Part shown: positions 38,757 to 58,552 of the stretch, one piece after another
Position numbering within the stretch: the stretch's first letter is position 1
Layout of the letters: every line of letters starts with the position of its first letter
Virus record (IMG/VR): IMGVR_UViG_3300045125_000071
Location: 62,001 to 126,000 of that record
Source: a virus
Reading direction: 5' to 3' (one strand)
Length of the DNA stretch: 64,000 nt
The notes under the pieces: generated by a model
What the model saw: the letters and a program-made list of their open reading frames with translations, nothing else
The model's database searches: none
Told to the model about the DNA's origin: nothing
Translations under genes and position numbers: made by a program

Positions 38757-39047
38757 GGTCGAGTGATGAAATTGGTAGCACATGCAAGACTTATACAATT
38801 TGAGTGCACAAGAGGAAACTCTTGATGTAGAATTCCGTAAATTCGGTGAACCCTGTAAAATGGGAATACCGAGCCAAGCATCAGCAATGATGAAGGTGTA
38901 GAGACTAGACACGGAACACCTAAATCGTAAGATATGGTGAAGGTATAGTCCAGAGTACAAACACAGCAATGTGGTAGTGAAAACTATAGTACTAAGAAAA
39001 TCTTGTGGGCAGTAATGCCCGTGTGGGTTCGAACCCCACCTCGACTA
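38757..39047 (+). tRNA. tRNA-Leu(UAA), interrupted by a group I intron
   Basis: 5' exon 38757-38792, 3' exon 38997-39047. Joined: acceptor GGTCGAG/CTCGACT (one G-U), anticodon stem CAAGA/TCTTG, loop CTTAAAA with anticodon TAA, long variable arm GGGC-AGTAAT-GCCC, T arm GTGGG-TTCGAAC-CCCAC, discriminator A. No encoded CCA. The intron lies between U34 and A35, the same position as in cyanobacterial and plastid tRNA-Leu(UAA) introns. Confidence 0.9.
38793..38996 (+). mobile_element. Group I intron (204 nt) in tRNA-Leu
   Basis: P1 pairs exon ACTT with intron GAGT (U-G at the splice site). Core elements are visible: ATTCGGTGAA..CCGAGCCAAGC (P4-P6), AGAGACTAGAC (P7 5' strand) and GGTATAGTCCAGAG (P7 3' strand), ending in the usual G (38996). 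No ORF inside; the nearby GIY-YIG gene is outside the tRNA. Confidence 0.9.
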
Positions 39048-39093: not shown

Positions 39094-39723
39094 ATGCCAA
39101 GAAAAGAACATGATTATCACTACATTTATAAAACAACCAATCTATTAAATGGTAATTTTTATGTTGGGATGCACTCAACAAGTGATTTAAACGATGGTTA
39201 TTTAGGTAGTGGTGTAAGAGTAACAAGGTCAATAAAAAAACATGGTAAAAAAATTTTAGTATTGAAATACTCGAATTTTTACCCAATAGAAAAGCCTTAA
39301 AAGAAAGAGAGAAAGAAATTGTAAATGAACAATTTTTACAAAATGAAAATTGTTTAAACCTCCAACCTGGAGGTGGTGGTGGGTTTGTCAATAGTAACCA
39401 CAAAGAAAAATTTTTTGAAGGTTCCAAAAAATATCAGTTTAAGACTGAAGATGCTGCAAAAGGAAAAAAGATTTTTTAGAGCGTTATTATAATGACGAAG
39501 AATTTAGAAAATATTATAAATCAAGATTAAGACCTTATAATTGGACAGGTAGAAAACATAAAGAAGAAACAAAATTCAAAATAAGTATAATCAATTCTGA
39601 AAAACAAAAGGGAGACAAAAATTCCCAATTTGGTACTTGTTGGATTACCAATGGTATAGAAAACAAGAAAATAAAAAAACAGACGAAATACCTATGGGTT
39701 GGAGATTGGGTAGAGTAGTTTAA
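39094..39723 (+). CDS. GIY-YIG homing endonuclease (frameshifted)
   Basis: MPRKEHDYHYIYKTTNLLNG then NFYVGMHSTSDLNDGYLGSG, the GIY-YIG core; breaks near 39250, 39470 and 39680. C-terminus NSQFGTCWITNGIENKKIKK is nearly the same as in the intact protein at 49703-50383, so they are paralogues. Inserted straight after the intron-bearing tRNA-Leu; the intron may depend on it for homing, though the ORF is not inside the intron. Confidence 0.82.
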
Positions 39724-39815: not shown

Positions 39816-39894
39816 AGTCAGGTGGCGAAATTGGCAGACGCAATGTGAAACGGTACAACTTATACTAAAGTAACATGGAGAAGTCCACGTACTA
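39816..39894 (+). ncRNA. tRNA-like unit, 5' part only
   Basis: Starts with the shared 5' block AGTCAGGTGGCGAAATTGG and continues almost identically to the unit at 43040 (same central ACAACTTATACTAAAGT), but lacks the T arm and 3' acceptor strand. Its 3' hairpin AGTA..TGGA-GAAG-TCCA..TACT differs from the 43040 copy in a compensatory way. Confidence 0.5.
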
Positions 39895-39919
39895 TTAAAA
39901 TAATTAAAAACAAAAAGGT

Positions 39920-40087
39920 ATGAAAAAATATCATTTAACAATTTTGAGAAACGATAACTATGAAACTGTTTTTGGTGAAATGAGTTCAATAGTGAGTTTC
40001 TTACTGATAGAGAAAGAAATTGGAAATAAAACCCATATATTGTATTCGCGAGAACTAACTGAGTCAGAGTGGGAATTAGTTAAGTAA
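39920..40087 (+). CDS. Small hypothetical protein in tRNA array
   Basis: 55 residues: MKKYHLTILRNDNYETVFGE, SSIVSFLLIEKEIGNKTHIL, ESEWELVK. One of several tiny ORFs in the gaps of the array. No family recognised. Confidence 0.55.
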   Translation: MKKYHLTILRNDNYETVFGEMSSIVSFLLIEKEIGNKTHILYSRELTESEWELVK

Positions 40088-40094
40088 AACAAAT

Positions 40095-40223
40095 AGTCAG
40101 GTGGCGGAACGGGGTATCAGATACTCTTTGGCAGACGCTAATATGCTGAGTCCTTTTGGAGCTAACATCCTTTCGCGATTGGATTAAATGGGGGACGTAT
40201 AGGTTCGAATCCTGTCCTGACTA
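40095..40223 (+). ncRNA. tRNA-like unit (129 nt) with insert in the D-arm region
   Basis: Acceptor AGTCAGG/CCTGACT, T arm ATAGG-TTCGAAT-CCTGT, discriminator A. The D-loop region is enlarged by a GTAT-CAG-ATAC hairpin, and the middle holds further structure instead of a plain anticodon arm. No reliable anticodon. Confidence 0.5.
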
Positions 40224-40401
40224 CAAAAACTATAAATCGTGGAAAAAATAAAAGTAAAATATCCTCACTTATTAAAGTTCCTAATAGGGTTTTACAAGCC
40301 TCTTTAGCTTTTTATATGATTTATCATTTTAACTTTTTACACTTAATAGGTTATTTAATTTTATTAATAAGTCTTCATAGTATTAAAATGTATAACATAA
40401 T

Positions 40402-40425
40402 CAGGTTCGAATCCTGCCCTGACTA
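40402..40425 (+). ncRNA. tRNA-like unit, 3' part only
   Basis: CAGGTTCGAATCCTG followed by CCCTGACTA, the shared T arm and acceptor strand, without a 5' partner directly upstream. The orphan 5' half at 39816 lies 0.5 kb upstream, with a complete unit nested between them. About 180 bases before it (40224-40401) show nothing convincing except AT-rich sequence. Confidence 0.4.
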
Positions 40426-40441
40426 CTTAAAATTTAAAAAA

Positions 40442-40633
40442 ATGGAAAGATATAAGTGTATTCGTAATTATCCTGGTGGACCTGGAAAAGACGTGGTAGT
40501 ATACCATCCACATAAAGAAGTGGCCTATAAGGATAGATATTTCAAACAAAAGAATGAAGAAAATTCTCGTAACTATATTTTTTTTGATGAAGACTACGTA
40601 AAAAAGTTTCCGAAATATTGGAAAAAAATATAA
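40442..40633 (+). CDS. Small hypothetical protein in tRNA array
   Basis: 63 residues: MERYKCIRNYPGGPGKDVVV, YHPHKEVAYKDRYFKQKNEE, FFDEDYVKKFPKYWKKI. Aromatic and charged, an SH3-like feel but no family assigned. Starts 17 bases after an orphan tRNA-like 3' end. Confidence 0.6.
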   Translation: MERYKCIRNYPGGPGKDVVVYHPHKEVAYKDRYFKQKNEENSRNYIFFDEDYVKKFPKYWKKI

Positions 40634-40641
40634 TCTAAAAT

Positions 40642-40745
40642 AGTCAGGTGGCGTAGTGGTATCGCAGCACCCTCACGGTTGAGACTAACGGCTAATGGCA
40701 CTCTGTATGATAAAGCTGACGCAGGTTCGATTCCTGCCCTGACTG
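40642..40745 (+). ncRNA. tRNA-like unit (104 nt)
   Basis: AGTCAGGTGGCGTAGTGG, D-arm-like GGCGTAGTGGTATCGC, then a middle of about 55 bases without a canonical anticodon arm (CTCA-CGGT-TGAG hairpin), T arm CGCAGG-TTCGATT-CCTGC, CCTGACT, discriminator G. Confidence 0.5.
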
Positions 40746-40765
40746 CTAATCATATTATCTTCTTT

Positions 40766-41105
40766 GAAACAACTGTTGGTCAACACTGAACAAGTAACAG
40801 ATAAATCAGGTATGTAGAACCTAAAATTCTATAAAAGAATGGATGGTGTCTACATTGAAATTATCTACAATCCTCAACGTCAAGGTTGGAATTAATGACG
40901 AAATATAAAGGACAAAAACCTTTGCAGCTCCCACTGCTAAAGAGATGGGTAGAAACAAGTGTAGAACTATATTATCTGTTTAGTCTCATGGTTCTAAGAC
41001 ATGAGTAGGGTTTGGGTTGACGTGTAGTTTATTGTAAGAAAACTGAGCAGTACCTTTTATACTGGTACAATTAAATTTCCCGTCTTAGAGGGCGACAGTT
41101 GTTTC
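40766..41105 (+). ncRNA. Structured RNA, family member 1 (340 nt)
   Basis: Closed by an 11-bp helix GAAACAACTGT (40766-40776) with ACAGTTGTTTC (41095-41105). Contains hairpin CTCATG-GTTCTAAGA-CATGAG (40985-41005) followed by GGGTTTGGGTTGACGTG, and CTTAGAGGGCGAC near the 3' end. A shorter homologue lies at 42186-42370 with the same blocks in the same order and a covarying closing helix. No ORF fits. Function unknown. Confidence 0.7.
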
Positions 41106-41224
41106 TTTCTTATGTGCTTTACACTAGAGATGGTAACACAGAATGTGTGTATTGCAGTCAATAAGATGTGTGTTGTTCTCTTGAGAAAGGAATGAAGGAG
41201 TAACAAGTTTATCGTTAACACCAC

Positions 41225-41250
41225 TGGGGACTTCTCATCCCCATTTTTTC
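41225..41250 (+). terminator. Rho-independent terminator
   Basis: TGGGGA-CTTCTCA-TCCCCATTTTTT; five-pair GC stem with a T run, 120 bases downstream of the structured RNA. The stretch 41106-41224 shows no ORF. Confidence 0.7.
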
Positions 41251-41273
41251 TATTCTGACTAAAAATTAAAATT

Positions 41274-41429
41274 ATGGAAAACGAATTGGAGAAGAAAGAA
41301 AAATGTAAATGTGGTAATTCACCACAAGAATTGCATACATGTCCTTATGCGGAAGATGTACAAGGGGATAGTATAACCTTGTGCAATTGTTGTTCGGATT
41401 GTGAGAATCAATGCATTGCAGACATATAA
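41274..41429 (+). CDS. Small zinc-ribbon-like cysteine-rich protein
   Basis: 51 residues with eight cysteines: KCKCGNSPQELHTCPYAEDV and LCNCCSDCENQCIADI. This CxC...CPYA...CNCCxxC pattern is a widespread tiny phage/Bacteroidota protein. Likely binds zinc; role unknown. Confidence 0.75.
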   Translation: MENELEKKEKCKCGNSPQELHTCPYAEDVQGDSITLCNCCSDCENQCIADI

Positions 41430-41447
41430 AAATAGCCAGGTGGTATC

Positions 41448-41467
41448 AGTTGTTTCTTTTTTATGTG
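41448..41467 (+). repeat. Second copy of the 3' strand of the RNA closing helix
   Basis: AGTTGTTTCTTTTTTATGTG repeats 41097-41116 with one mismatch. It begins the same way as the 3' closing strand of the structured RNA, but no separate 5' strand was found nearby. It follows a partial unit start AGCCAGGTGG (41434). Confidence 0.5.
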
Positions 41468-41486
41468 TTAATGTTCATATTTTCTC

Positions 41487-41507
41487 TTGTTCACGTAACG
41501 TGAACAA
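41487..41507. promoter_or_regulatory. Perfect 21-bp palindrome
   Basis: Ten-base arms TTGTTCACGT / ACGTGAACAA around a central A. As DNA it would suit a dimeric regulator or recombinase; as RNA the loop is too small for full pairing. Lies just before a pseudoknot-like RNA. Confidence 0.5.
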
Positions 41508-41517
41508 AGAAAAATAA

Positions 41518-41586
41518 AACAGACCCACGCTTCCCATCTCGAAGGATAATGAGAGGGAATAATACGTCCTTTAAGGTCTGTTTTTA
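41518..41586 (+). ncRNA. Small RNA with terminal stem, hairpin and pseudoknot
   Basis: Terminal stem AACAGACC/GGTCTGTT followed by T5 (terminator-like). Inside, TTCCC..CTC pairs with GAG.GGGAA, and the loop AAGGA can pair with downstream TCCTT, giving a compact pseudoknot. 69 bases, no ORF. Confidence 0.5.
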
Positions 41587-41590
41587 ATAT

Positions 41591-41720
41591 AGTCAGTGGC
41601 GGAATTGGTTAGACGCGGTAGAGTCCGAAAGGTTAGCACTCTATGACTGCAAGCGAAACTCTGACTGCTAACACAAAGAGGAGTATAATTGCAATGCAGG
41701 TTCGAATCCTGTCCTGACTA
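41591..41720 (+). ncRNA. tRNA-like unit (130 nt)
   Basis: AGTCAG(G)TGGCGGAATTGG, one G short in the acceptor. Insert pairs TAGAGT with ACTCTA (enclosing a CC-GAAA-GG hairpin) and GTTAGC with GCTAAC in an interlocked (pseudoknot) order. T arm TGCAGG-TTCGAAT-CCTGT, CCTGACT, discriminator A. Anticodon not assignable. Confidence 0.5.
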
Positions 41721-41857
41721 CCGATGGTTAAAGTCCCTACGAGTTGTGACAATTAAAACGATGTTGTCATTATCGAAAGATACCTCACCATAAAACTCTG
41801 GGCAAACTCCCCTAACAGGAAACTGAACGGGTTGACAGCTTGGAAAGACAAGCAAAT

Positions 41858-41947
41858 AGTCAGGTGACGGAATGACATCCGTTAGAAAAGGTGTGAGGGC
41901 GAACGTGGTCGGAAAGCACCTAGTAGGTTCGAATCCTGCCCTGACTG
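41858..41947 (+). ncRNA. tRNA-like unit (90 nt) with enlarged anticodon-type loop
   Basis: Shared acceptor; D-arm ACGG..CCGT lacking the GG pair; stem AGGTGT/GCACCT enclosing 21 bases where seven are expected; T arm TAGG-TTCGAAT-CCTG; discriminator G. Preceded by hairpin GCTTG-GAAAGA-CAAGC and AAAT (41838-41857). Confidence 0.5.
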
Positions 41948-42065
41948 CTGATTCAGTTTGCCCGTGGTAACGGATTGATGGGAGAAATCCTTGCAATCTT
42001 CTGTAATCAAAATCCAATTATTGTCTCACTGGTAATTGGGCTAAATGTGAGAAAAAACGGGACAT

Positions 42066-42183
42066 AGTCAGGTGGCGGAATGGTGCCAAAGTATAAAACA
42101 AAGGGCAGGACACAAAGTCACTGAACACAGAGGAGAGGTTGAGGAACTCCCATTACTTACAGGTTCGAATCCTGTCCTGACTG
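42066..42183 (+). ncRNA. tRNA-like unit (118 nt)
   Basis: Shared acceptor and T arm, discriminator G. D-arm GGC..GCC; long stem AAGTA/TACTT enclosing about 60 bases with a GGAG..CTCC hairpin like a long variable arm. No clear anticodon. Confidence 0.5.
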
Positions 42184-42185
42184 CT

Positions 42186-42370
42186 AAAACAACTAAGTTG
42201 ATTAACACCAGACAGTAACAAGAGGAAGCAGCACTATACCAGTTAAAGTCTGGGATTGTTACCTCATAATCTAAGATATGAGTGGTTTGGGTTAATGTAT
42301 GACAGTTTTGAACAGAGAGTGGTTCGACTCCACTATTCATACTCTACTTAGAAGGCAGCTTAGTTGTTTT
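42186..42370 (+). ncRNA. Structured RNA, family member 2 (185 nt)
   Basis: Perfect 12-bp closing helix AAAACAACTAAG (42186-42197) with CTTAGTTGTTTT (42359-42370). Shares with member 1: AACAACT..GTTG.T.AACAC, AGTAACA, hairpin CTCAT-AATCTAAGAT-ATGAG, GGTTTGGGTT and CTTAGAAGGC before the closing strand. Unlike member 1 it also holds a T-arm-like hairpin GTGG-TTCGACT-CCAC enclosed by GTATGA/TCATAC, a tRNA-like minihelix. Confidence 0.7.
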
Positions 42371-42468
42371 AAACTTATACTGGTTTTTGATACCGCTTTA
42401 CCGTTAGGAACGGGTATACCCCAAAACAGAATACAAAATGGTATGACAAGCCTGGAGAGACAGGCAAA

Positions 42469-42608
42469 TAGTCAGGTGGCGGAATTGGTAGACGCAGGGT
42501 CTACCTCAAGCGATTAGAGTATACGAGACGGGTGAAAGTTCCTCATTCCAAGTTGACCACGCTTACCCTTTAAAGGCAATTATACAGGTTCGATTCCTGT
42601 CCTGGACT
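42469..42608 (+). ncRNA. tRNA-like unit (140 nt)
   Basis: AGTCAGGTGGCGGAATTGGT, then stem AGGGT/ACCCT where the anticodon stem should be, followed on the 5' side by seven bases CTACCTC and a further helix AAGCG/CGCTT; about 60 extra bases in all. 3' acceptor has one extra G (CCTGGACT). Preceded by hairpin GCCTG-GAGAGA-CAGGC and AAAT. Confidence 0.5.
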
Positions 42609-42722
42609 GCAAAAAATTAAACATATAGTGTATATCGATAAATGCATCGTTAATTATTTTGGCGATTATGGGTATTGTGTTTTTGGGGTATTGTTACACA
42701 AAAAGGTGGATTATAAAGATAT

Positions 42723-42799
42723 AGTCAGGTGGCTGAATTGGTGACAGAGGCACACCGTTAAACGACGGGTGGATGCGGGTTCGAATCCTGTCCTGACTG
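42723..42799 (+). tRNA. tRNA-like gene of normal length (77 nt), isotype unclear
   Basis: AGTCAGG/CCTGACT, D-arm region GGCTGAATTGGTGACAGAGG, anticodon hairpin CCGT-TAAACG-ACGG (loop not seven bases, possibly an indel), T arm ATGCGGG-TTCGAAT-CCTGT, discriminator G. One of the few array members without a large insert. Anticodon not called. Confidence 0.55.
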
Positions 42800-42885
42800 C
42801 TAGGTAAGTTGCAAGTAAATGTCGTGATTCATGAACTTACGACCACTAGAAAGGAGCTGACTGCTGGGAAACGAGACAGCACTAT

Positions 42886-42962
42886 AGTCAGGTGGTGTAA
42901 TTGGTAGCACAACATCCGACAAGGGATGGAGGAGTCTAAAGGTTCGATTCCTGTCCTGACTA
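42886..42962 (+). tRNA. tRNA-like gene of normal length (77 nt), possibly Val(GAC)
   Basis: AGTCAGG/CCTGACT, D-arm GTG-TAATTGGTAG-CAC, anticodon stem CATCC/GGATG with a six-base loop GACAAG; a missing U33 would give anticodon GAC. T arm AAAGG-TTCGATT-CCTGT, discriminator A. Preceded by CTGCTG-GGAAACGA-GACAGC hairpin. Confidence 0.55.
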
Positions 42963-43039
42963 CGATTAGAGGTATAGGGGTACCCTGAGGCGAAGTACAA
43001 GCCATGGTCACTGAATGTAAACCAACTCTAAACTAATTT

Positions 43040-43140
43040 AGTCAGGTGGTGAAATTGGCAGACGCAATGTGAAACGGTACAACTTATACTAAAGTAGCTT
43101 GGAGAAGTCCACTTTACAGGTTCGAATCCTGTCCTGACTA
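43040..43140 (+). ncRNA. tRNA-like unit (101 nt)
   Basis: Shared acceptor and T arm, discriminator A. Between them, ATGTGAAACGGTACAACTTA and a GGA-GAAG-TCC hairpin; nearly identical to the truncated unit at 39816 except for compensatory changes in the hairpin base (AAAG..CTTT here, AGTA..TACT there). Confidence 0.5.
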
Positions 43141-43157
43141 CAAAAAACAAAAAAACT

Positions 43158-43337
43158 ATGAGCAACAATTCAAGTTCCAGTGGTATTGGTTTACCAACAA
43201 TTCTTTTTATTGTATTTTTGGTATTAAAACTAACTAATTACATTGATTGGTCATGGTGGTGGGTAACTTCTCCATTATGGATTTCTGCAATATTATATAT
43301 CATTCTCATTGTTGTTATTGAGAAAATTTTTCGTTGA
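43158..43337 (+). CDS. Small membrane protein
   Basis: 59 residues, two hydrophobic segments: GIGLPTILFIVFLVLKLTNY and WWWVTSPLWISAILYIILIV, separated by a Trp-rich turn. This looks like the tiny transmembrane proteins common in Bacteroidota phages. Function unknown. Confidence 0.65.
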   Translation: MSNNSSSSGIGLPTILFIVFLVLKLTNYIDWSWWWVTSPLWISAILYIILIVVIEKIFR

Positions 43338-43355
43338 CTTTGAAAATTAAATAAA

Positions 43356-43583
43356 ATGGACTATTCGGATGCAAGAATAAAAGCATTGTATCTTAAATGG
43401 AAGACATCTACATGTGACCAAGGAGAAAAGTGTTGGTGTCGTGTGATTAAATGCGAAGAATCATTGATGTATAAGGAGTATGAAGGTGATGATGAACAAG
43501 AATACAATGTGGTGGGCCCAGGGCTATTGGACAAAGAAACTGTTGAACATATTGTCAAACTTCACAACGATTCAATTAAGTGA
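43356..43583 (+). CDS. Small hypothetical protein
   Basis: 75 residues: MDYSDARIKALYLKWKTSTC, DQGEKCWCRVIKCEE, ETVEHIVKLHNDSIK. Three clustered cysteines and an acidic middle. No family recognised. Confidence 0.6.
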   Translation: MDYSDARIKALYLKWKTSTCDQGEKCWCRVIKCEESLMYKEYEGDDEQEYNVVGPGLLDKETVEHIVKLHNDSIK

Positions 43584-43599
43584 ATCTCAAAAAACAAAC

Positions 43600-43945
43600 A
43601 TGAACAAAGTCGTAATTAACGGAAACACAGTAAGTGGTAATTTTGCTGCCGACAACCTTATTATAATTAACGGAAAGGTTTTTGTCAATGGGAAAGATGT
43701 TACACCTGATGCAAAAGAAATAAACATTACCATTCAAGGGTCTGTTGAAAAATTGGAGGTCGATGCTTGTTCAAAAATAACCATTGATGGTGATGTCCAT
43801 AATGTCACAACCAAAAGCGGTGATGTCGATATTTCGGGGAACGTTAGCGGTAATGTTCAAACCATGTCTGGGTGATGTTGATTGCGGAAATGTCAGTGGT
43901 TCGATTTCAACAATGAGTGGTGACATTAAGCACAAACATATTTAA
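43600..43945 (+). CDS. Bactofilin/beta-helix-like repeat protein (frameshifted)
   Basis: MNKVVINGNTVSGNFAADNL, then repeats such as VHNVTTKSGDVDISGNVSGN and, after a break near 43870, GDVDCGNVSGSISTMSGDIK to HKHI. Short parallel-beta repeats of the GDV.GNVSG type are like bactofilins and DUF4097-type proteins. I chose the ATG at 43600 because it starts the repeat pattern; an earlier in-frame start overlaps the previous gene. Confidence 0.6.
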
Positions 43946-43952
43946 ATAAAAC

Positions 43953-44068
43953 AGTCAGGTGGCGGAGTGGTAGACGCAGAGTTTAGGGTTACTGATGTAG
44001 ATAGGTAACTGGTCACGCAGCGAGATAGCGTACTCTTTCTATCGCAGGTTCGATTCCTGTCCTGACTA
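43953..44068 (+). ncRNA. tRNA-like unit (116 nt)
   Basis: Shared acceptor and T arm, discriminator A. Stem AGAGT/ACTCT in anticodon-stem position encloses 48 bases with hairpins GTTAC..GTAAC and CGC..GCG; GATAG inside can pair with CTATC just before the T arm (interlocked helix). Confidence 0.5.
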
Positions 44069-44137
44069 CTAATCTTTTTTAACTTCAGATTAACCATAAA
44101 AAGAAAAGTTAATGACATCTTGGAAAGACAAGAAAAT

Positions 44138-44227
44138 AGTCAGGTGGCGCAAGTGTGAAGAATAATCACCATGGGTAAGCGAGCTGTGGAAACACGGAGG
44201 TTGTGGGTTCGAATCCCACCCTGACTA
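44138..44227 (+). ncRNA. tRNA-like unit (90 nt) with variable arm
   Basis: AGTCAGG/CCTGACT, variable-arm-like hairpin CTGTG-GAAA-CACGG, T arm GTGGG-TTCGAAT-CCCAC (different from the other units), discriminator A. Preceded by TCTTG-GAAAGA-CAAGA and AAAT. Anticodon region not canonical. Confidence 0.5.
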
Positions 44228-44241
44228 CAAAAATAAAACTT

Positions 44242-44394
44242 ATGAAAAAGTATAACGTCCTATTGGGTATTATTGGGTATATTTTGACAGTGTGTGTAGC
44301 GCCAGCATTGTTTATTGAAAAACATTACATATTAGCACTAATATCTTTTATAGGGGGAATTGCAGTAATCGATTATAACAGAGGTGGCAATTAA
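44242..44394 (+). CDS. Small membrane protein
   Basis: 50 residues: MKKYNVLLGIIGYILTVCVA then PALFIEKHYILALISFIGGI, two hydrophobic segments and a short charged end. No family recognised. Confidence 0.55.
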   Translation: MKKYNVLLGIIGYILTVCVAPALFIEKHYILALISFIGGIAVIDYNRGGN

Positions 44395-44400
44395 TTACAT

Positions 44401-44547
44401 AGTCAGGTGGCGCAATGGTAGACGCTGTAAAAGTAAGATATGGGGATTGTGCACTCGGTGTTATCCTACGCACAAGGCTTAGATAGTTTTAGCAAAAACG
44501 GAAAGTCTTACAAAACTATTATACAGGTTCGAATCCTGTCCTGACTG
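44401..44547 (+). ncRNA. tRNA-like unit (147 nt, longest)
   Basis: Shared acceptor and T arm, discriminator G. Insert holds hairpin TTGTGC..GCACAA and two strong interlocked helices, GTAAGA/TCTTAC and ATAGTTTT/AAAACTAT, in the order a1-b1-a2-b2 (a pseudoknot). No anticodon identified. Confidence 0.5.
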
Positions 44548-44562
44548 CAAAAAATTAAAAAT

Positions 44563-44778
44563 ATGAAACAACCTAAAATACAAATTACGGACATCCACGG
44601 AGAAGATTGGGGTGTTAAAAAAGTCACACATCTTGGTTGGAATATTAATGGAAACTTAGTCGAAATAAAAGTTGACTTTATGGGTAATTATTACGACTTG
44701 ATGGTAATGTATGATATTGATTGTACTGGTACATTTACCAATATTCATGGTAACTTAAAAGGTAAACTAATTTTTTGA
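44563..44778 (+). CDS. Small hypothetical protein
   Basis: 71 residues, beta-rich: MKQPKIQITDIHGEDWGVKK, WNINGNLVEIKVDFMGNYYD. Lies between two tRNA-like units. No family recognised. Confidence 0.55.
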   Translation: MKQPKIQITDIHGEDWGVKKVTHLGWNINGNLVEIKVDFMGNYYDLMVMYDIDCTGTFTNIHGNLKGKLIF

Positions 44779-44788
44779 ATAAAAAAAC

Positions 44789-44895
44789 AGTCAGGTGGCG
44801 GAATGGTAGACGTAGAATCGGAAACCTAATGAGGTAGTGAACGAAAGATTTGGATAACTGCGGTTATCGTACAGGTTCGATTCCTGTCCTGACTG
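44789..44895 (+). ncRNA. tRNA-like unit (107 nt), class II-like with insert
   Basis: Clearest tRNA-like plan: D-arm, anticodon stem GAATC/GATTT enclosing 27 bases (seven expected), variable arm GATAAC-TGCG-GTTATC, T arm, CCTGACT, discriminator G. Suggests a roughly 20-base insertion in the anticodon loop. Confidence 0.55.
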
Positions 44896-44909
44896 CAAAA
44901 AGGAAAAGT

Positions 44910-45252
44910 ATGATACTTTGGAAGTGGCAAAATGGAAGACAACATAATTGCGAATATCAGAAGTTCCCACTATGGTATTTTAAGTTATGGAAGTTTGGGT
45001 TTGATTGTTACATTCTCAGTTATAATGAGAACCAAACATTACCCAAACATAAAGACCCTATTGTGAATGGAAAACACTGGAGATTGAATATCGGATATGG
45101 TAATTCAAATTTTCTTTGTGAAAAATTAATTTTTGGTAAAAAAGATTGGATTATTATCCGTATATTTGTTTAGGCCTGATTTATATGAACATTCCCTTCA
45201 TATAATTGGGAAAACAAGAAAACTCTCTATTGGGTTTGCAAAGTATATGTAA
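44910..45252 (+). CDS. 2OG-Fe(II) oxygenase-like small protein (frameshifted)
   Basis: MILWKWQNGRQHNCEYQKFP, LPKHKDPIVNGKHWRLNIGY (candidate H-x-D), and after a break near 45170 RPDLYEHSLHIIGKTRKLSI with a candidate distal His and Arg. The pattern resembles small phage oxygenase-fold proteins. Activity is inferred; metal ligands need confirmation. Confidence 0.55.
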
Positions 45253-45258
45253 GTAAAT

Positions 45259-45374
45259 GGTCAGGTGGCGAAATAGAGCAGACGCATGATGATAAAGTAG
45301 GGTCCGAATGTACTCGGAGGAAATTGATTCAATTAGGTTGCAAACTAATATAGGTTCGAATCCTGTCCTGACTA
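45259..45374 (+). ncRNA. tRNA-like unit (116 nt), class II-like
   Basis: GGTCAGG/CCTGACT (G-U at first pair), D-arm AAATAGAGCAGACGC, hairpin TCCGA-ATGTAC-TCGGA in the middle, variable-arm-like ATTAGGTT-GCAA-ACTAAT, T arm, discriminator A. No reliable anticodon. Confidence 0.5.
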
Positions 45375-45491
45375 CGAGGGAAATAATCTTAACCAGCCTC
45401 AAATGTTGAATCTTGTTGACCATTCCTGGTTTATACAAGTGCGAACGGGCCTAATGATGGTAAGGTTGACAGCGGGGAAAGACCCGACCAT

Positions 45492-45577
45492 GGTCAAGTA
45501 GCTTATAATGGGTATATGGGTATTAACTCTTCCTTTAAGTAGGTTTAGCATTGTGGGTTCAAATCCCATCTTGACCG
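45492..45577 (+). tRNA. tRNA gene with different acceptor stem, possibly Lys(CUU)
   Basis: Acceptor GGTCAAG/CTTGACC, T arm GTGGG-TTCAAAT-CCCAT, discriminator G. The anticodon arm is poor: TTAA around CTCTTCC would give CTT. Preceded by a GGGG-AAAGA-CCC hairpin like other array members. Confidence 0.5.
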
Positions 45578-45591
45578 CAAAATAAAATGTT

Positions 45592-46206
45592 ATGAAAAGC
45601 AAGACAGTGGAACGCATCATGGGAGAAATGGAAAAAGACCCGTGGTATGTCAAACTAAGAAGGTGGTGGAATCTGAAGGTGTGGACATGGAAATGTTTAT
45701 CCAGGAAATATTGGGACAAAACACATTCTGGTTATATCTTTAGAAAAAGAATCATGATTTCAAAAGAAACATTGGAAGCAGTTCGGGTTGGAATACTAAC
45801 GGACAAGCAATTGAATGAAGCAATTGAACACTATACTAAGTTAGAAGAACTTCTAAGATGTCATGGAGAAGTATATTCTCTTGTATGGAGCAATGTTTTT
45901 TATATACTTCATACGCTTGAAGGATATCAAACATCAAGAAAAAAGAGGGTTGATTGGGAAGGGATATACAATAACCTGATGGTGGAGGTAGTATATCTGG
46001 AGTTTGGAATCATCATAGTAATGCCAATCGTAAAAGGAGTTGTCCACGGAACCATCTTCTCCTTTCCTTTTTCATATAAAACAATTATTATGTTTTCAAA
46101 AACAAGAGTCAAGTTCAGACTTAAAGGAAGTGACGAAATCCAATTGGGGTTTTTGGAAAAAAATAAAGAATACAAAAAACAAATATCGTGTTTTATCCAT
46201 GGATAA
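45592..46206 (+). CDS. Hypothetical protein, possibly two fused genes
   Basis: 204 residues in one frame. The start MKSKTVERIMGEMEKDPWYV and the part from MISKETLEAVRVGILTDKQL look like two separate small phage proteins I have seen apart, and the last third (YLEFGIIIVMPIVKGVVHGT) is hydrophobic. A hidden indel may join them. Function unknown. Confidence 0.5.
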   Translation: MKSKTVERIMGEMEKDPWYVKLRRWWNLKVWTWKCLSRKYWDKTHSGYIFRKRIMISKETLEAVRVGILTDKQLNEAIEHYTKLEELLRCHGEVYSLVWSNVFYILHTLEGYQTSRKKRVDWEGIYNNLMVEVVYLEFGIIIVMPIVKGVVHGTIFSFPFSYKTIIMFSKTRVKFRLKGSDEIQLGFLEKNKEYKKQISCFIHG

Positions 46207-46270
46207 AAAATCTGGATATTGTATTTCTTTGTTAGATATGTTGGAAAAATTTAAATATTTAATAGAACAT

Positions 46271-46345
46271 AGTCAGGGTGGCTGAATGGCAACGGCAGTT
46301 CACGAGGTGTTACGAAGAATGCAGGTTTGAATCCTGTCCTGACTG
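46271..46345 (+). tRNA. tRNA-like gene of normal length (75 nt), isotype unclear
   Basis: AGTCAGG with an extra G after it, D-arm GCTG-AATGGCAA-CGGC, T arm GCAGG-TTTGAAT-CCTGT, CCTGACT, discriminator G. The anticodon arm does not fold cleanly, perhaps because of a sequencing error. Confidence 0.5.
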
Positions 46346-49702: not shown

Positions 49703-50383
49703 GTGACTTTTTTAAATTTTGACCATACTTATAATAAGTATGGCAAATTTAAACACAAAAAAAAGTATCATTTTATTTACAAAACAACAAATTTAAAAAC
49801 TGGTCATTTTTATATTGGGATGCACTCAACCAATAATTTAAATGATGGTTATTTGGGTAGTGGTAAAAGATTAACACGTTCCATAAGAAAGTATGGTAAA
49901 GAAAATTTTAAATTAGACATTTTGGAATTTTTACCAGATAGAAAAACATTAGAATTAAAAGAAAAAGAATTAGTCAATGAAGAACAATTAAAAGACCCAT
50001 TATGCATGAATATATGCGTTGGGGGTCAAGGTGGTTTCATATCAATAGAAGGATGCACTAAAGGTGGTGTAATCGCAGCAAAAATTCATGTTGATAGAAT
50101 AAAAAATGATTCAGAATATAGGGAAAAACATATATTGAGGTTTAGTGAAAAAGTAAAAAAACTTTGGAGAGATGGTGTTCTTAAACAACACGATTTTAGA
50201 GGTGGAAAACGGAAAGAAGAAACTAAAAGAAAAATAAGTGAAACAAATAAAATAAAACAAAAAGGAATTTTAAATTCACAATTTGGAACTCGATGGATTA
50301 CTGATGGTTCTGAAAATAAAAAAATAAAAAATACCGAGACAATACCAAATGGATGGGTCTTAGGTAGAAAAATGAAAAAATAA
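49703..50383 (+). CDS. GIY-YIG homing endonuclease (intact)
   Basis: 226 residues. KKYHFIYKTTNLKTGHFYIG then MHSTNNLNDGYLGSGKRLTR, the GIY-YIG core (Y-x9-YIG, Arg, Glu in ...KYGKENFKLDILEF), a GGQGGFISIEG linker and ending NSQFGTRWITDGSENKKIKN. Paralogue of the broken gene at 39094-39723. Starts at GTG in the read; the true start is uncertain. It lies just after tRNA-Arg. Confidence 0.88.
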   Translation: MTFLNFDHTYNKYGKFKHKKKYHFIYKTTNLKTGHFYIGMHSTNNLNDGYLGSGKRLTRSIRKYGKENFKLDILEFLPDRKTLELKEKELVNEEQLKDPLCMNICVGGQGGFISIEGCTKGGVIAAKIHVDRIKNDSEYREKHILRFSEKVKKLWRDGVLKQHDFRGGKRKEETKRKISETNKIKQKGILNSQFGTRWITDGSENKKIKNTETIPNGWVLGRKMKK

Positions 50384-53327: not shown

Positions 53328-53771
53328 GTGGGTCGTCTGGTTGAGGTGGGAACACCAATAAGAGTAACTCGTAGGGTAGTTGCAAGAAATATGGTCATCC
53401 AACTATATGATTGCGGTATCCAATACAATGGGTGTCTTAAAGTTGAAAGACATGATGAAAAACAGGTGGTGCTGTTATCATCCTTAGTTAGAATCTACCA
53501 AGGTTCTGATTATGAAGAAATCCAAAAGTATGGAGGTAGGGATATCTCAGAGAGTAGTTGTGTATTTTGCGGTTCAAAAGACTGTGAAGCACTGGTGACG
53601 GACCACTACTTTCAAAATCCACAAACCAAAAACTGTTACTTTTGACTAACAAGTTTAAAAAAGCAGGAAAAGTGTCCGTCAGTCATCAGAGACAGGTGGC
53701 TACTCAGTAACGAGTTGTTCGTTGCCACAAAGGGTCCCAAGCCCAATGTGATTTTTGTGAAAGTTCTCTAA
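53328..53771 (+). CDS. HNH-like endonuclease within the large RNA (frameshifted)
   Basis: MVIQLYDCGIQYNGCLKVER (probable start at the ATG 53391) then SSCVFCGSKDCEALVTDHYF, a Cys-x-x-Cys plus D-H typical of HNH nucleases, QNPQTKNCYF, a break near 53646, and SVIRDRWLLSNELFVATKGP to VIFVKVL. About 130-145 residues. HNH proteins inside structured RNAs are typically intron homing endonucleases or RNA-guided relatives; this one lacks any RuvC part. Confidence 0.6.
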
Positions 53772-53983
53772 TCCCGCAAGGATGAGTTGGTGAGGCATCA
53801 TCGAAGAGCAGCGATTAGCAAGAGAGTATCTGGTGACTCAAGGATTGGTTAATCTAATTGACCGCCATTGATTGGTACTACTCAAAAGGTAGTGGATAAG
53901 AAGAGAACCTCAAAAGGGATAATGCTTCGAAAGTCAATCACAAGAACTTGTAATCTCAGAGTTTTTACTTTAATTGCTTACCC

Positions 53984-56042: not shown

Positions 56043-57515
56043 TTATTTTATCAAATATTTCATTATTCTTTTCATCTCGTTGATTTGATTATCAACTTGT
56101 GTTCTCTTTGCAATTTCAATTGCATCATCATAACTTAAATTAGGATTTTCATAATATGCATCCTCAACCGCAGCCATAGCAGCACCAATAGCTTTACCTT
56201 GTTTAAACCCGATGTTTATCAAATCATTTCCATTAATTGGTAATTTTGGCTTATTCTTATCCAATTGCATATTTAATTTTTCTAATCTATTCTTAACAAT
56301 TTCAATTTGTTCTGGCATGGAAGAATGTTCGCTATGCGCAATATTGTCCGCATGAATTAAATCCAAAATATCCTCAAGATTTTGACCAACTGTAACAACG
56401 AATTTCCTTAATGTCTTATCTGATATATTTGCAGCATCTGGTCCTCCATGTTTTAATCTCATATGGTTTTTTACACCAGCAACGACAGCATCAATCAATT
56501 CATTTGGATATTTTAACCTTATCATAATTTTTTTGACCATATCAGCCCCAACTTCCTCATGTTGATAAAAATGGACCGAACCTTCTGGTGATACAGTCTT
56601 CGTTAGAGTCTTGCCAATATCGTGAAATAACCCCATTAGACGCGTTTTAAGCCTGGGCGGTGTCTTTGATAGAACATCCATGCTGTGCATGAAAACATCG
56701 TCTTTATGGTGCGCATTTTGCCTCATACCAACAGCAGAATCAAACTCCCCTATGATATGTGACAATAGACCCGTAACCTTCATTAATCTGAACGCTTTTC
56801 TTGGGTCAGTAGTCATTAACATCTTATCTATTTCATCTCTAATTCTTTCAGATGAAATTGTTTTAATAAGTTCAGCATTCTTTTTAATATTTTTTATTAC
56901 GCTGGTTTCCATATCGAACCCATATTTGCAAGCAAATCTAATTGCCCTTAACATCCTCAATGGGTCTTCTTTGAATATTAATTCAGCGTCCTGCGTGGTT
57001 CTTATAATACCATTTTTGATGTCATCAATACCTTTACCACTAATATCTAAAATTTCACCTGTTGAAACATTTTTTAATAATGAATTTATAGTTAGGTCTC
57101 GCCTCAAAGCATCGTCCTCAATTTTACCAGCAACAACTTCAGGTTTTCTTGAACCAGGTGTATATTCTTCTTTTCTTGGTGCAACAAATTCTAATTCAAT
57201 TGATGGTAAATCTTGATTGTTATTATTAAGTGACAATTTGGCAGTTCCAAACTTAGGATATATGACAGGATTGCTGTCTTGTTTAAAATTACCCAATTCT
57301 TTACCTAACCATGTTGCGAAATTTATACCAGCATCTAAATTACCGATAACAGTAAAATCTAAATCCTTTGCTGGTTTACCCATTATTTCATCTCTCACAG
57401 CACCACCAGCTAAAAATACTTTATTCTCCCATTCTGTACCTTGAATTTTATTTTTCAAAAATTCTAATACAGTATATTCATCTGTTGATTCTAAAATTAA
57501 TTTTTTATAATACAT
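56043..57515 (-). CDS. cca: CCA-adding enzyme (tRNA nucleotidyltransferase) with HD domain
   Basis: 490 intact residues. NTase head: VFLAGGAVRDEIMGKPAKDL then DFTVIGN (G-G-A-V-R-D, D-x-D), RDLTINSLLKNVSTGEILD, ELIFKEDPLRMLRAIRFACK (neck), and an HD domain LMGLFHDIGKTLTKTVSPEG. Adds CCA to tRNA 3' ends. No tRNA in this window encodes CCA, and all end in a discriminator base, so the enzyme fits the array and tmRNA. Preceded by ATATTTATT (57521-57529 minus). Confidence 0.93.
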   Translation of the reverse strand: MYYKKLILESTDEYTVLEFLKNKIQGTEWENKVFLAGGAVRDEIMGKPAKDLDFTVIGNLDAGINFATWLGKELGNFKQDSNPVIYPKFGTAKLSLNNNNQDLPSIELEFVAPRKEEYTPGSRKPEVVAGKIEDDALRRDLTINSLLKNVSTGEILDISGKGIDDIKNGIIRTTQDAELIFKEDPLRMLRAIRFACKYGFDMETSVIKNIKKNAELIKTISSERIRDEIDKMLMTTDPRKAFRLMKVTGLLSHIIGEFDSAVGMRQNAHHKDDVFMHSMDVLSKTPPRLKTRLMGLFHDIGKTLTKTVSPEGSVHFYQHEEVGADMVKKIMIRLKYPNELIDAVVAGVKNHMRLKHGGPDAANISDKTLRKFVVTVGQNLEDILDLIHADNIAHSEHSSMPEQIEIVKNRLEKLNMQLDKNKPKLPINGNDLINIGFKQGKAIGAAMAAVEDAYYENPNLSYDDAIEIAKRTQVDNQINEMKRIMKYLIK

Positions 57516-58366: not shown

Positions 58367-58552
58367 ATGGTAAAGAAATTTTTAGATTTTTTGAAATTGT
58401 CTTTTGCAAAAACACCAATTACTAAAAATGTAGTTGATGTCGAATTGAAAAATTCCGTATCTTTGTCATCTGAACCAGCAACAGATGTTGTTGAAAAAAA
58501 GAAAAGAGGTAGGAAGAAAAAGAAGAGTCTGCACAATAATATATGGGGGTGA
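58367..58552 (+). CDS. Small basic protein overlapping the tmRNA start
   Basis: 61 residues: MVKKFLDFLKLSFAKTPITK then SVSLSSEPATDVVEKKKRGR and a Lys-rich end like an AT-hook. Its last codons overlap the first bases of tmRNA. TATCTTTG (58458-58465) inside it may be the tmRNA promoter. Function unknown. Confidence 0.5.
   Translation: MVKKFLDFLKLSFAKTPITKNVVDVELKNSVSLSSEPATDVVEKKKRGRKKKKSLHNNIWG

Follow-up and report, generated by a model that had tools for sequence, protein, structure and literature searches.

tRNA-framed units with structured cores in a metagenomic phage: probable genes for non-decoding small RNAs exchanged among phages

Introduction

Phage T4 carries, in its cluster of tRNA genes, the gene for species-1 RNA (rnaC), which has homologues in T-even phages. 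This stable RNA of 139 nt has a large structured core, and its 3′ end is formed by a T-arm of the tRNA type and an acceptor stem with imperfect pairing. We know of no function for this RNA. The present analysis concerns an array of units that likewise have tRNA-like ends and unusual interiors, situated in a 64,000-nt stretch of DNA (the window; G000:C1:62001-126000) within the 251,358-bp virus record IMGVR_UViG_3300045125_000071.

Other RNAs that combine tRNA parts with additional structure are known. In engineered tRNA scaffolds, a foreign RNA replaces the anticodon arm and is stabilized by the tRNA frame. The TMERs of murine gammaherpesvirus 68 are eukaryotic RNA polymerase III RNAs in which microRNA hairpins follow the tRNA part. 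They are non-coding, tRNA-like RNAs that a virus encodes and that play a part in infection (PMC8223928, PMC4838037). Phage tRNAs, for their part, counter tRNA-cutting defences, and some have altered anticodon loops (PMC10264068, PMC11555353). A search of the open-licence literature yielded no description of the RNA class presented here.

Results

An array of tRNA-framed units without a decoding arm

Between positions 39816 and 46345, and on the + strand only, the window contains 15 complete units bounded by AGTCAGG..CCTGACT, and two halves of such units, as the original prediction, made from the sequence alone, had claimed. These motifs occur far more often than expected by chance: AGTCAGG or its complement was found 32 times in the window (2.7 expected) and the T-arm motif 18 times (4.8 expected). 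Unit lengths are 74-146 nt without the discriminator base and 75-147 nt with it, the latter being the range first reported. Written out, the ends of the frame are AGTCAGGTGGCG..TTCGAATCCTGTCCTGACT. The 5′ part is typically TGGCGGAATTGGTAGACGC, which is similar to the D-arm of tRNA-Leu, and the 3′ part is a T-arm with the loop TTCGAAT or TTCGATT. No two units in the window have the same middle.

The array opens with a 5′ half-unit (39816..39889) comprising the 5′ acceptor strand, the D-arm and the start of a core; its T-arm is lost, and over 74 nt it is 96% identical to the 101-nt unit at 43040..43140. A lone 3′ half (T-arm, CCTGACT and A) is situated at 40402..40425. Among the complete units, that at 40095..40223 is 129 nt long and that at 46271..46345 is 75 nt. 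Small departures from the common frame were observed at 41591..41720, where the junction of acceptor and D-arm is one base shorter and the interior offers candidate interlocked helices, at 42470..42610, where the 3′ acceptor strand has one additional base (CCTGGACT), and at 45259..45374, where the 5′ base is G instead of A. In a related unit at 45492..45577 the acceptor stem has been re-written to GGTCAAG..CTTGACC.

An anticodon arm was defined as a 5-bp stem and a 7-nt loop with U33 and R37, and none of the 15 units in the window possesses one. Two short units had been described as near-normal, a description that does not hold: at 42886..42962 a 5-bp stem carries a 6-nt loop, and at 42723..42799 there is no clean 5-bp/7-nt arm. 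A further AGTCAGG unit beyond the window (G000:C1:163945-164056, approximately 56 kb from the array) also lacks a normal anticodon arm. The Rfam tRNA model matched most of the 15 AGTCAGG units in the window via their ends, with widely spread E-values, and ARAGORN called two elements in the whole array, one of them without an anticodon.

A superfamily of such units in viruses

Scans of IMG/VR for the unit ends gave at least 634 distinct units at no fewer than 345 loci; all counts based on 634 units refer to the matches listed. The units derive from hundreds of viruses, all known from metagenomes alone, and have a median length of 104 nt (5-95% range 71-149 nt, full range 44-248 nt). A canonical anticodon arm was detected in five of the 634 (0.4 in shuffled sequences), three of the five being tRNA-Lys(UUU). 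Applied to the 1292 other tRNAs in these loci, the detector accepts 1003; the phages thus carry ordinary tRNAs with diverse acceptors beside the superfamily.

A scan for the T-arm alone, and thus without bias towards any acceptor, covered 80 loci. CCTGACT followed the T-arm in 24 of them, the next commonest acceptor in five. Units with CCTGACT ranged from 69 to 180 nt, whereas, two exceptions apart, units whose acceptor differed and had an exact partner strand measured 70-93 nt. The AGTCAGG acceptor stem thus characterizes a superfamily that is specific to viruses and has interiors of abnormal form. A search of 84,980 bacterial and archaeal genomes found the pattern of the 3′ end in six contigs only, all from metagenome-assembled genomes and four of them labelled Bacteroidota; all six bear non-canonical units of the same kind.

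No cultured phage with AGTCAGG-type ends was present among the blastn matches listed for full-unit and end queries. A pattern scan of Flavobacterium immuto, Microcystis Mel-JY01, Rhodothermus RM378, T4 and the 735-kb phage LR756501 gave three matches with 2-3 mismatches, all in LR756501. Non-canonical tRNA-framed units with other acceptors were observed near 204050 in LR756501.1 (AGTTAAG/CTTAACT) and at 67838-68050 in the crAss-like phage cr4_1 (NC_055893.1; AGTAAG/CTTACT), which suggests a class extending beyond AGTCAGG.

Indirect lines of evidence suggest that the carriers are T4-like phages of Bacteroidota. A T4-like Gp23 capsid protein is encoded in 32 of 50 large unit-bearing records, and the nearest capsid and portal relatives of the phage studied here occur in phages such as Rhodothermus RM378, Flavobacterium immuto and Microcystis Mel-JY01. 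Few Shine-Dalgarno-like sites are expected for Bacteroidota hosts; such sites precede 3.9% of long open reading frames (ORFs) in the unit loci, 26% in control loci and none of 31 in the window.

Structure and conservation of the cores

BLAST clustering of the unit interiors gave 401 core families, 294 of them singletons, among the matches listed; the Chao1 estimator, applied to this biased sampling, gives about 1,146. Covariation was pooled over the 99 families that have two or more distinct members, the acceptor, D-arm and T-arm being left out. Pairs changed on both sides numbered 98, compared with 23.1 +/- 4.7 (maximum 32) in column-shuffled alignments, and in 88 of the 99 families the folds were more stable than the shuffled mean. 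Some families have an additional hairpin within the D-loop.

The core of the unit at 43953..44068 was sought with a pattern for the core part that did not require the ends. Six further contigs were found, and in all of them the core lies in the same frame. The five distinct sequences of this family keep standard pairing at all of 34 pairs (100%) and show five double changes, one position having A-U, U-A and G-C; pairing in slid controls was 28-42%. A helix from the loop to the 3′ side, interlocked with the rest, is a proposal: it is 100% paired and invariant, so that covariation neither proves nor excludes it.

Three other cores in the window have one relative each, with double changes visible by eye. 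The core at 41858..41947 recurs in locus L179 with compensatory changes. That at 44401..44547, a candidate pseudoknot (GTAAGA/TCTTAC plus ATAGTT/AACTAT), recurs in L438, where GTAAGA/TCTTAC is replaced by ATAAGA/TCTTAT. The third, at 44789..44895, includes the variable-arm hairpin GATAAC-TGCG-GTTATC and recurs in L512. The unit at 40642..40745 belongs to core family C1 (14 members, including the window copy) and that at 42066..42183 to family C7 (five members).

It is apparent from these comparisons that the anticodon arm and variable region have been replaced by one of hundreds of structured cores, and the data argue that the inserts are structured RNAs under selection. The original prediction had allowed that correction of indels might restore clean anticodons. 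This is rejected, in that independent contigs contain the same cores with compensatory changes and a canonical arm is missing from 629 of the 634 units. Sequencing error as the source of the inserts is ruled out by the recurrence of the same cores in independent assemblies.

Known RNAs were also considered. No Rfam family was found in the cores of the loci scanned, Rfam matches arising only through the tRNA ends. A tmRNA (transfer-messenger RNA) identity was rejected, as RF00023 has no match in the units and the phage's own tmRNA is separate, at 58545; GOLLD was rejected likewise, the RF02032 match (53550-53962) lying outside the units. Identity with tRNAs containing group I introns was not upheld: the Intron_gpI model has no match in the units, one intron being situated upstream. 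Inspection by eye of the AGTCAGG/CCTGACT ends revealed no attC core sites (RYYYAAC/GTTRRRY); no integrase search was made. The longest antisense complementarity to the rest of the window did not exceed that of shuffled sequences, allowing for 15 tests (lowest values 4/100 and 7/100).

Exchange of cores between phages

The same core family was found in different contigs in 332 pairs, of which 83% have both 600-bp flanks unrelated, and 72 of 86 families include at least one pair in unrelated 600-bp flanks. Homology beyond the unit is already close to background in the first 15 bases (0.59, compared with 0.54-0.56). A strict set was compiled of 102 pairs from 47 families, in which core identity is 90% or more and the 60-nt flanks are unrelated on both sides; mean core identity in unrelated surroundings is 0.95. 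In this set the T-loop variants of the two units agree in 54% of pairs (89% with related flanks, 39% at random) and the D-arms in 25% (56% with related flanks, 5% at random). One core family occurs even inside a fully re-written acceptor, AGTGCAG/CTGCACT, in the published record MW202828.

These results show the same core in unrelated surroundings with re-assorted end variants. As agreement of both T-loop and D-arm drops in the strict set, which is expected of crossing over in shared ends, the comparison argues that the core is inherited more stably than the frame and that end variants are largely uncoupled from it. The shared ends would thus appear to behave as recombination handles.

The frame and its maturation signals

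Standard pairing in the acceptor stem reaches 96-100% across the 634 units, and 15 changes there are compensated; U-A occupies position 3-70 in 621 units and U-G in 12. The T-stem is 96-100% paired, with several pair types, and covaries, and the T-loop is of the TTCRANT type, so that the units have the 7-bp acceptor stem and T-arm of a tRNA. U48 was found in 508 units, A73 in 563 and GG in the D-loop zone in 605; a Leu-type D-arm was found in 269-346. The alignments show conservation and covariation of the acceptor stem and T-arm and, usually, of a D-arm that includes the elbow GG. The last helix of the core tends to end 2 nt before the T-stem (237 cases, compared with 99.5), as in a class II variable arm.

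Signals flanking the frame were compared with those of true tRNAs from the same loci. C74 is encoded in 620 of 634 units (98%) and 658 of 663 true tRNAs (99%), and U-1 precedes 522 units (82%) and 442 true tRNAs (67%); the full CCA is encoded in 13 units. Where a true tRNA lies within 2 kb, the nearest is on the same strand as the unit in 280 of 280 cases. U-1 and C74 are thus seen to be kept as in the tRNA genes of the same phages, and on the same strand. Maturation by the tRNA pathway (RNase P plus 3′-end processing) would be the simplest reading of these signals.

A leader hairpin of the form TGACA-gctYG-GAAAGA-CRagc-AAYAT, with compensatory changes in its stem, was observed a few bases before approximately 27 of the 634 units. 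In the window it is situated at 41834-41854, before the unit at 41858, and at 44114-44133, before the unit at 44138..44227, with variants near 42445 and 45468; other examples are found in loci L206, L419, L058 and L478.

Neighbouring elements

A group I intron (RF00028) was detected at 38787-38976, with 41.2 bits and an E-value of 4.8e-9, below the gathering score. It is followed at approximately 39022-39046 by the T-arm GTGGGTTCGAACCCCAC and by CTCGACTA, a stretch conserved in loci L418, L413, L156 and L111, and it possibly sits in a tRNA or tRNA-like gene. Two related genes resembling GIY-YIG homing endonucleases (39094-39480 and 49703-50383) are situated beside the tRNA region; their DNA is 81% and 74% identical in blocks, the first looks frameshifted, and the second has SegE/GIY-YIG matches near the cut-off.

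The non-coding stretches 40745-41270 and 42183-42469 share, by eye, a segment TCTAAGAnATGAGT..TTTGGGTT, and short pieces of them are conserved in other phages; they are probably further structured RNAs. At approximately 42295-42337 there is a possible minimal tRNA-like element, GTATGA..TCATAC around the T-arm AGTGGTTCGACTCCACT, in which D-arm and anticodon arm are both missing; folding a part of it as a single sequence gave no support. The window also contains a GOLLD RNA (53550-53962, 307.7 bits), a phage tmRNA (58545-58944, 85.5 bits) and, on the - strand at 56043..57515, a phage CCA-adding enzyme (tRNA nucleotidyltransferase) with PolyA_pol, RNA-binding, HD and tRNA_NucTran2_2 domains, a possible, though not required, partner of the units.

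Discussion

Taken together, the data make it probable that the units are genes for non-decoding structured small RNAs built on a tRNA frame, matured by the tRNA pathway and exchanged among phages. RNase P and 3′-end maturation would cut the RNAs out of tRNA or mRNA transcripts, a host or phage CCA-adding enzyme would finish them, and the frame would give stability. Homologous recombination in the shared ends (approximately 25 nt each) would shift cores among loci and phages, the ends doubling as RNA-processing module and DNA handle. The original prediction had offered two alternatives, namely that the ends are homogenized by recombination or that the units carry RNA inserts by exploiting tRNA processing, and parts of both stand: the inserts appear to be structured RNAs under selection, flanked by the maturation signals of the phages' true tRNAs, while the histories of insert and ends are separate, which is what recombination in shared ends predicts.

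The cores themselves may be fast-changing RNAs that act on the host, with defence, translation or tRNA-handling factors as the most plausible objects; this is the least certain step. Their diversity, rapid turnover, horizontal exchange and small-gene location resemble anti-defence repertoires, and phage tRNAs are known to counter tRNA-cutting defences (PMC10264068, PMC11555353). By this analogy most cores would have an anti-host role, a proposal that merits about half the confidence placed in the reading above. A plug-in system, in which the tRNA frame serves as maturation module and recombination handle and phages trade a large pool of cores (Chao1 approximately 1100), most of them anti-host, is put forward as tentative.

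Several results weigh against the proposal of matured, exchanged small RNAs. RNase P cleavage, CCA addition and stability are deduced from sequence. Most core families were seen once or a few times, so that structure is demonstrated for a part of them only; the covariation evidence is pooled, with only eight of the 99 families individually above all of their own shuffles. RNAalifold gave no structure for the 14-member family C1, so support is not universal among families, and minimum free energy folding of the single units at 43953 and 44401 was no better than that of shuffled sequences, pseudoknots lying outside the model. Five units look like true tRNAs. The uncoupling of end variants from cores could stem in part from fast mutation of T-loop and discriminator. 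Neither GOLLD (nine of 50 unit records, two of 17 controls) nor a phage CCA-adding enzyme (seven of 50, five of 17) was associated with the units.

Of the rival explanations, the one that survives best is that the units are non-decoders with a link to translation: RNAs akin to tRNA-Leu that become leucylated or bind EF-Tu, leucyl-tRNA synthetase (LeuRS) or the ribosome, with a core that blocks decoding, and that would inhibit or re-route host translation or tRNA-sensing defences. E. coli LeuRS does not read the anticodon. A73, U48, the D-loop GG and the Leu-type D-arms would suit such a role, as would the use of phage tRNAs against tRNA-cutting defences (PMC10264068, PMC11555353). About half of the D-arms are not Leu-like, however, and one common translation target would not need hundreds of conserved cores. 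We regard this explanation as unlikely; it is a sub-case of the preferred reading, and confidence in the two overlaps.

Two further rivals are both improbable. Were the units decaying tRNA pseudogenes, functionless interiors would drift in a duplicated array while gene conversion homogenized the ends. The truncated copies at 39816 and 40404 and the shared, exchanged ends fit this picture, but distant phages conserve cores with compensatory changes and at high mean identity in unrelated surroundings, which drift would not maintain, and the canonical tRNAs of the same loci are intact. Alternatively, the constant ends might be recombination or integration sites in DNA (attC-like, or tRNA att sites) for small genes, the RNA being incidental. 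Units in the window alternate with small ORFs, many units are packed between such ORFs with the next ATG 10-30 nt downstream in 133 of 571 cases, and homology often ends at the unit borders; yet the part that moves is the core within the unit and not the adjacent ORF, the T-arm, C74 and U-1 are kept, and the cores covary as RNA. That the inserts are introns whose splicing restores the anticodon of a translation tRNA is very improbable: ARAGORN with introns of up to 150 nt does report 205 of 282 and a group I intron is situated nearby, but the anticodons and insertion points so obtained scatter inconsistently across all amino acids, Rfam intron models have no match inside the units, and canonical arms number five in 634.

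If the reading as non-decoding small RNAs is correct, the units represent hundreds of new structured RNA families with one architecture, a natural counterpart of the engineered tRNA scaffold. It would bear on two old questions, the role of non-decoding stable phage RNAs such as T4 species 1 and the large size of phage tRNA arrays, and the frame makes both testable, because any such RNA can be recognized, sequenced and expressed. The uncoupling of cores and ends suggests an exchange of RNA modules from virus to virus, akin to that of small protein domains.

Comparison with known systems

The units share with tRNA (RF00005) the acceptor stem, the T-arm, usually the D-arm, U-1 and C74, and differ from it in their lengths of 44-248 nt and in lacking a canonical anticodon arm in all but five cases. 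Phage tRNAs that evade defences still decode, whereas the units have no anticodon arm with which to do so. Like tmRNA, the units hold a large domain with pseudoknots, in their case candidate ones, between tRNA-like ends; unlike it, they have U-A in place of the G3-U70 identity pair, and their cores are many and unrelated. The TMERs are an analogy, the payload of the units lying inside the tRNA and comprising hundreds of families. Engineered scaffolds are man-made, whereas the phage units are natural and widespread. A resemblance to YrlA, a bacterial Y RNA that joins a tRNA-like module to a Ro-binding stem, may also be mentioned.

The closest analogue is T4 species-1 RNA, by a likeness in working that does not imply common ancestry. 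The units, too, have a tRNA-like 3′ end and a large structured core in a phage tRNA cluster. In phage phiR1-RT the acceptor stem of the rnaC homologue is a perfect 7 bp (CAGTCCG/CGGACTG). A tRNA-Asn of phage AV115 matches, in its 3′ portion, the final 32 nt of the T4 rnaC query. In blastn, the T4 sequence found T-even-type phages only, among the matches listed, and its acceptor and core differ from those of the units. Species-1 RNA is one RNA with one core, another acceptor sequence, no D-arm seen and no core exchange shown, while the units carry hundreds of cores in one recurrent frame.

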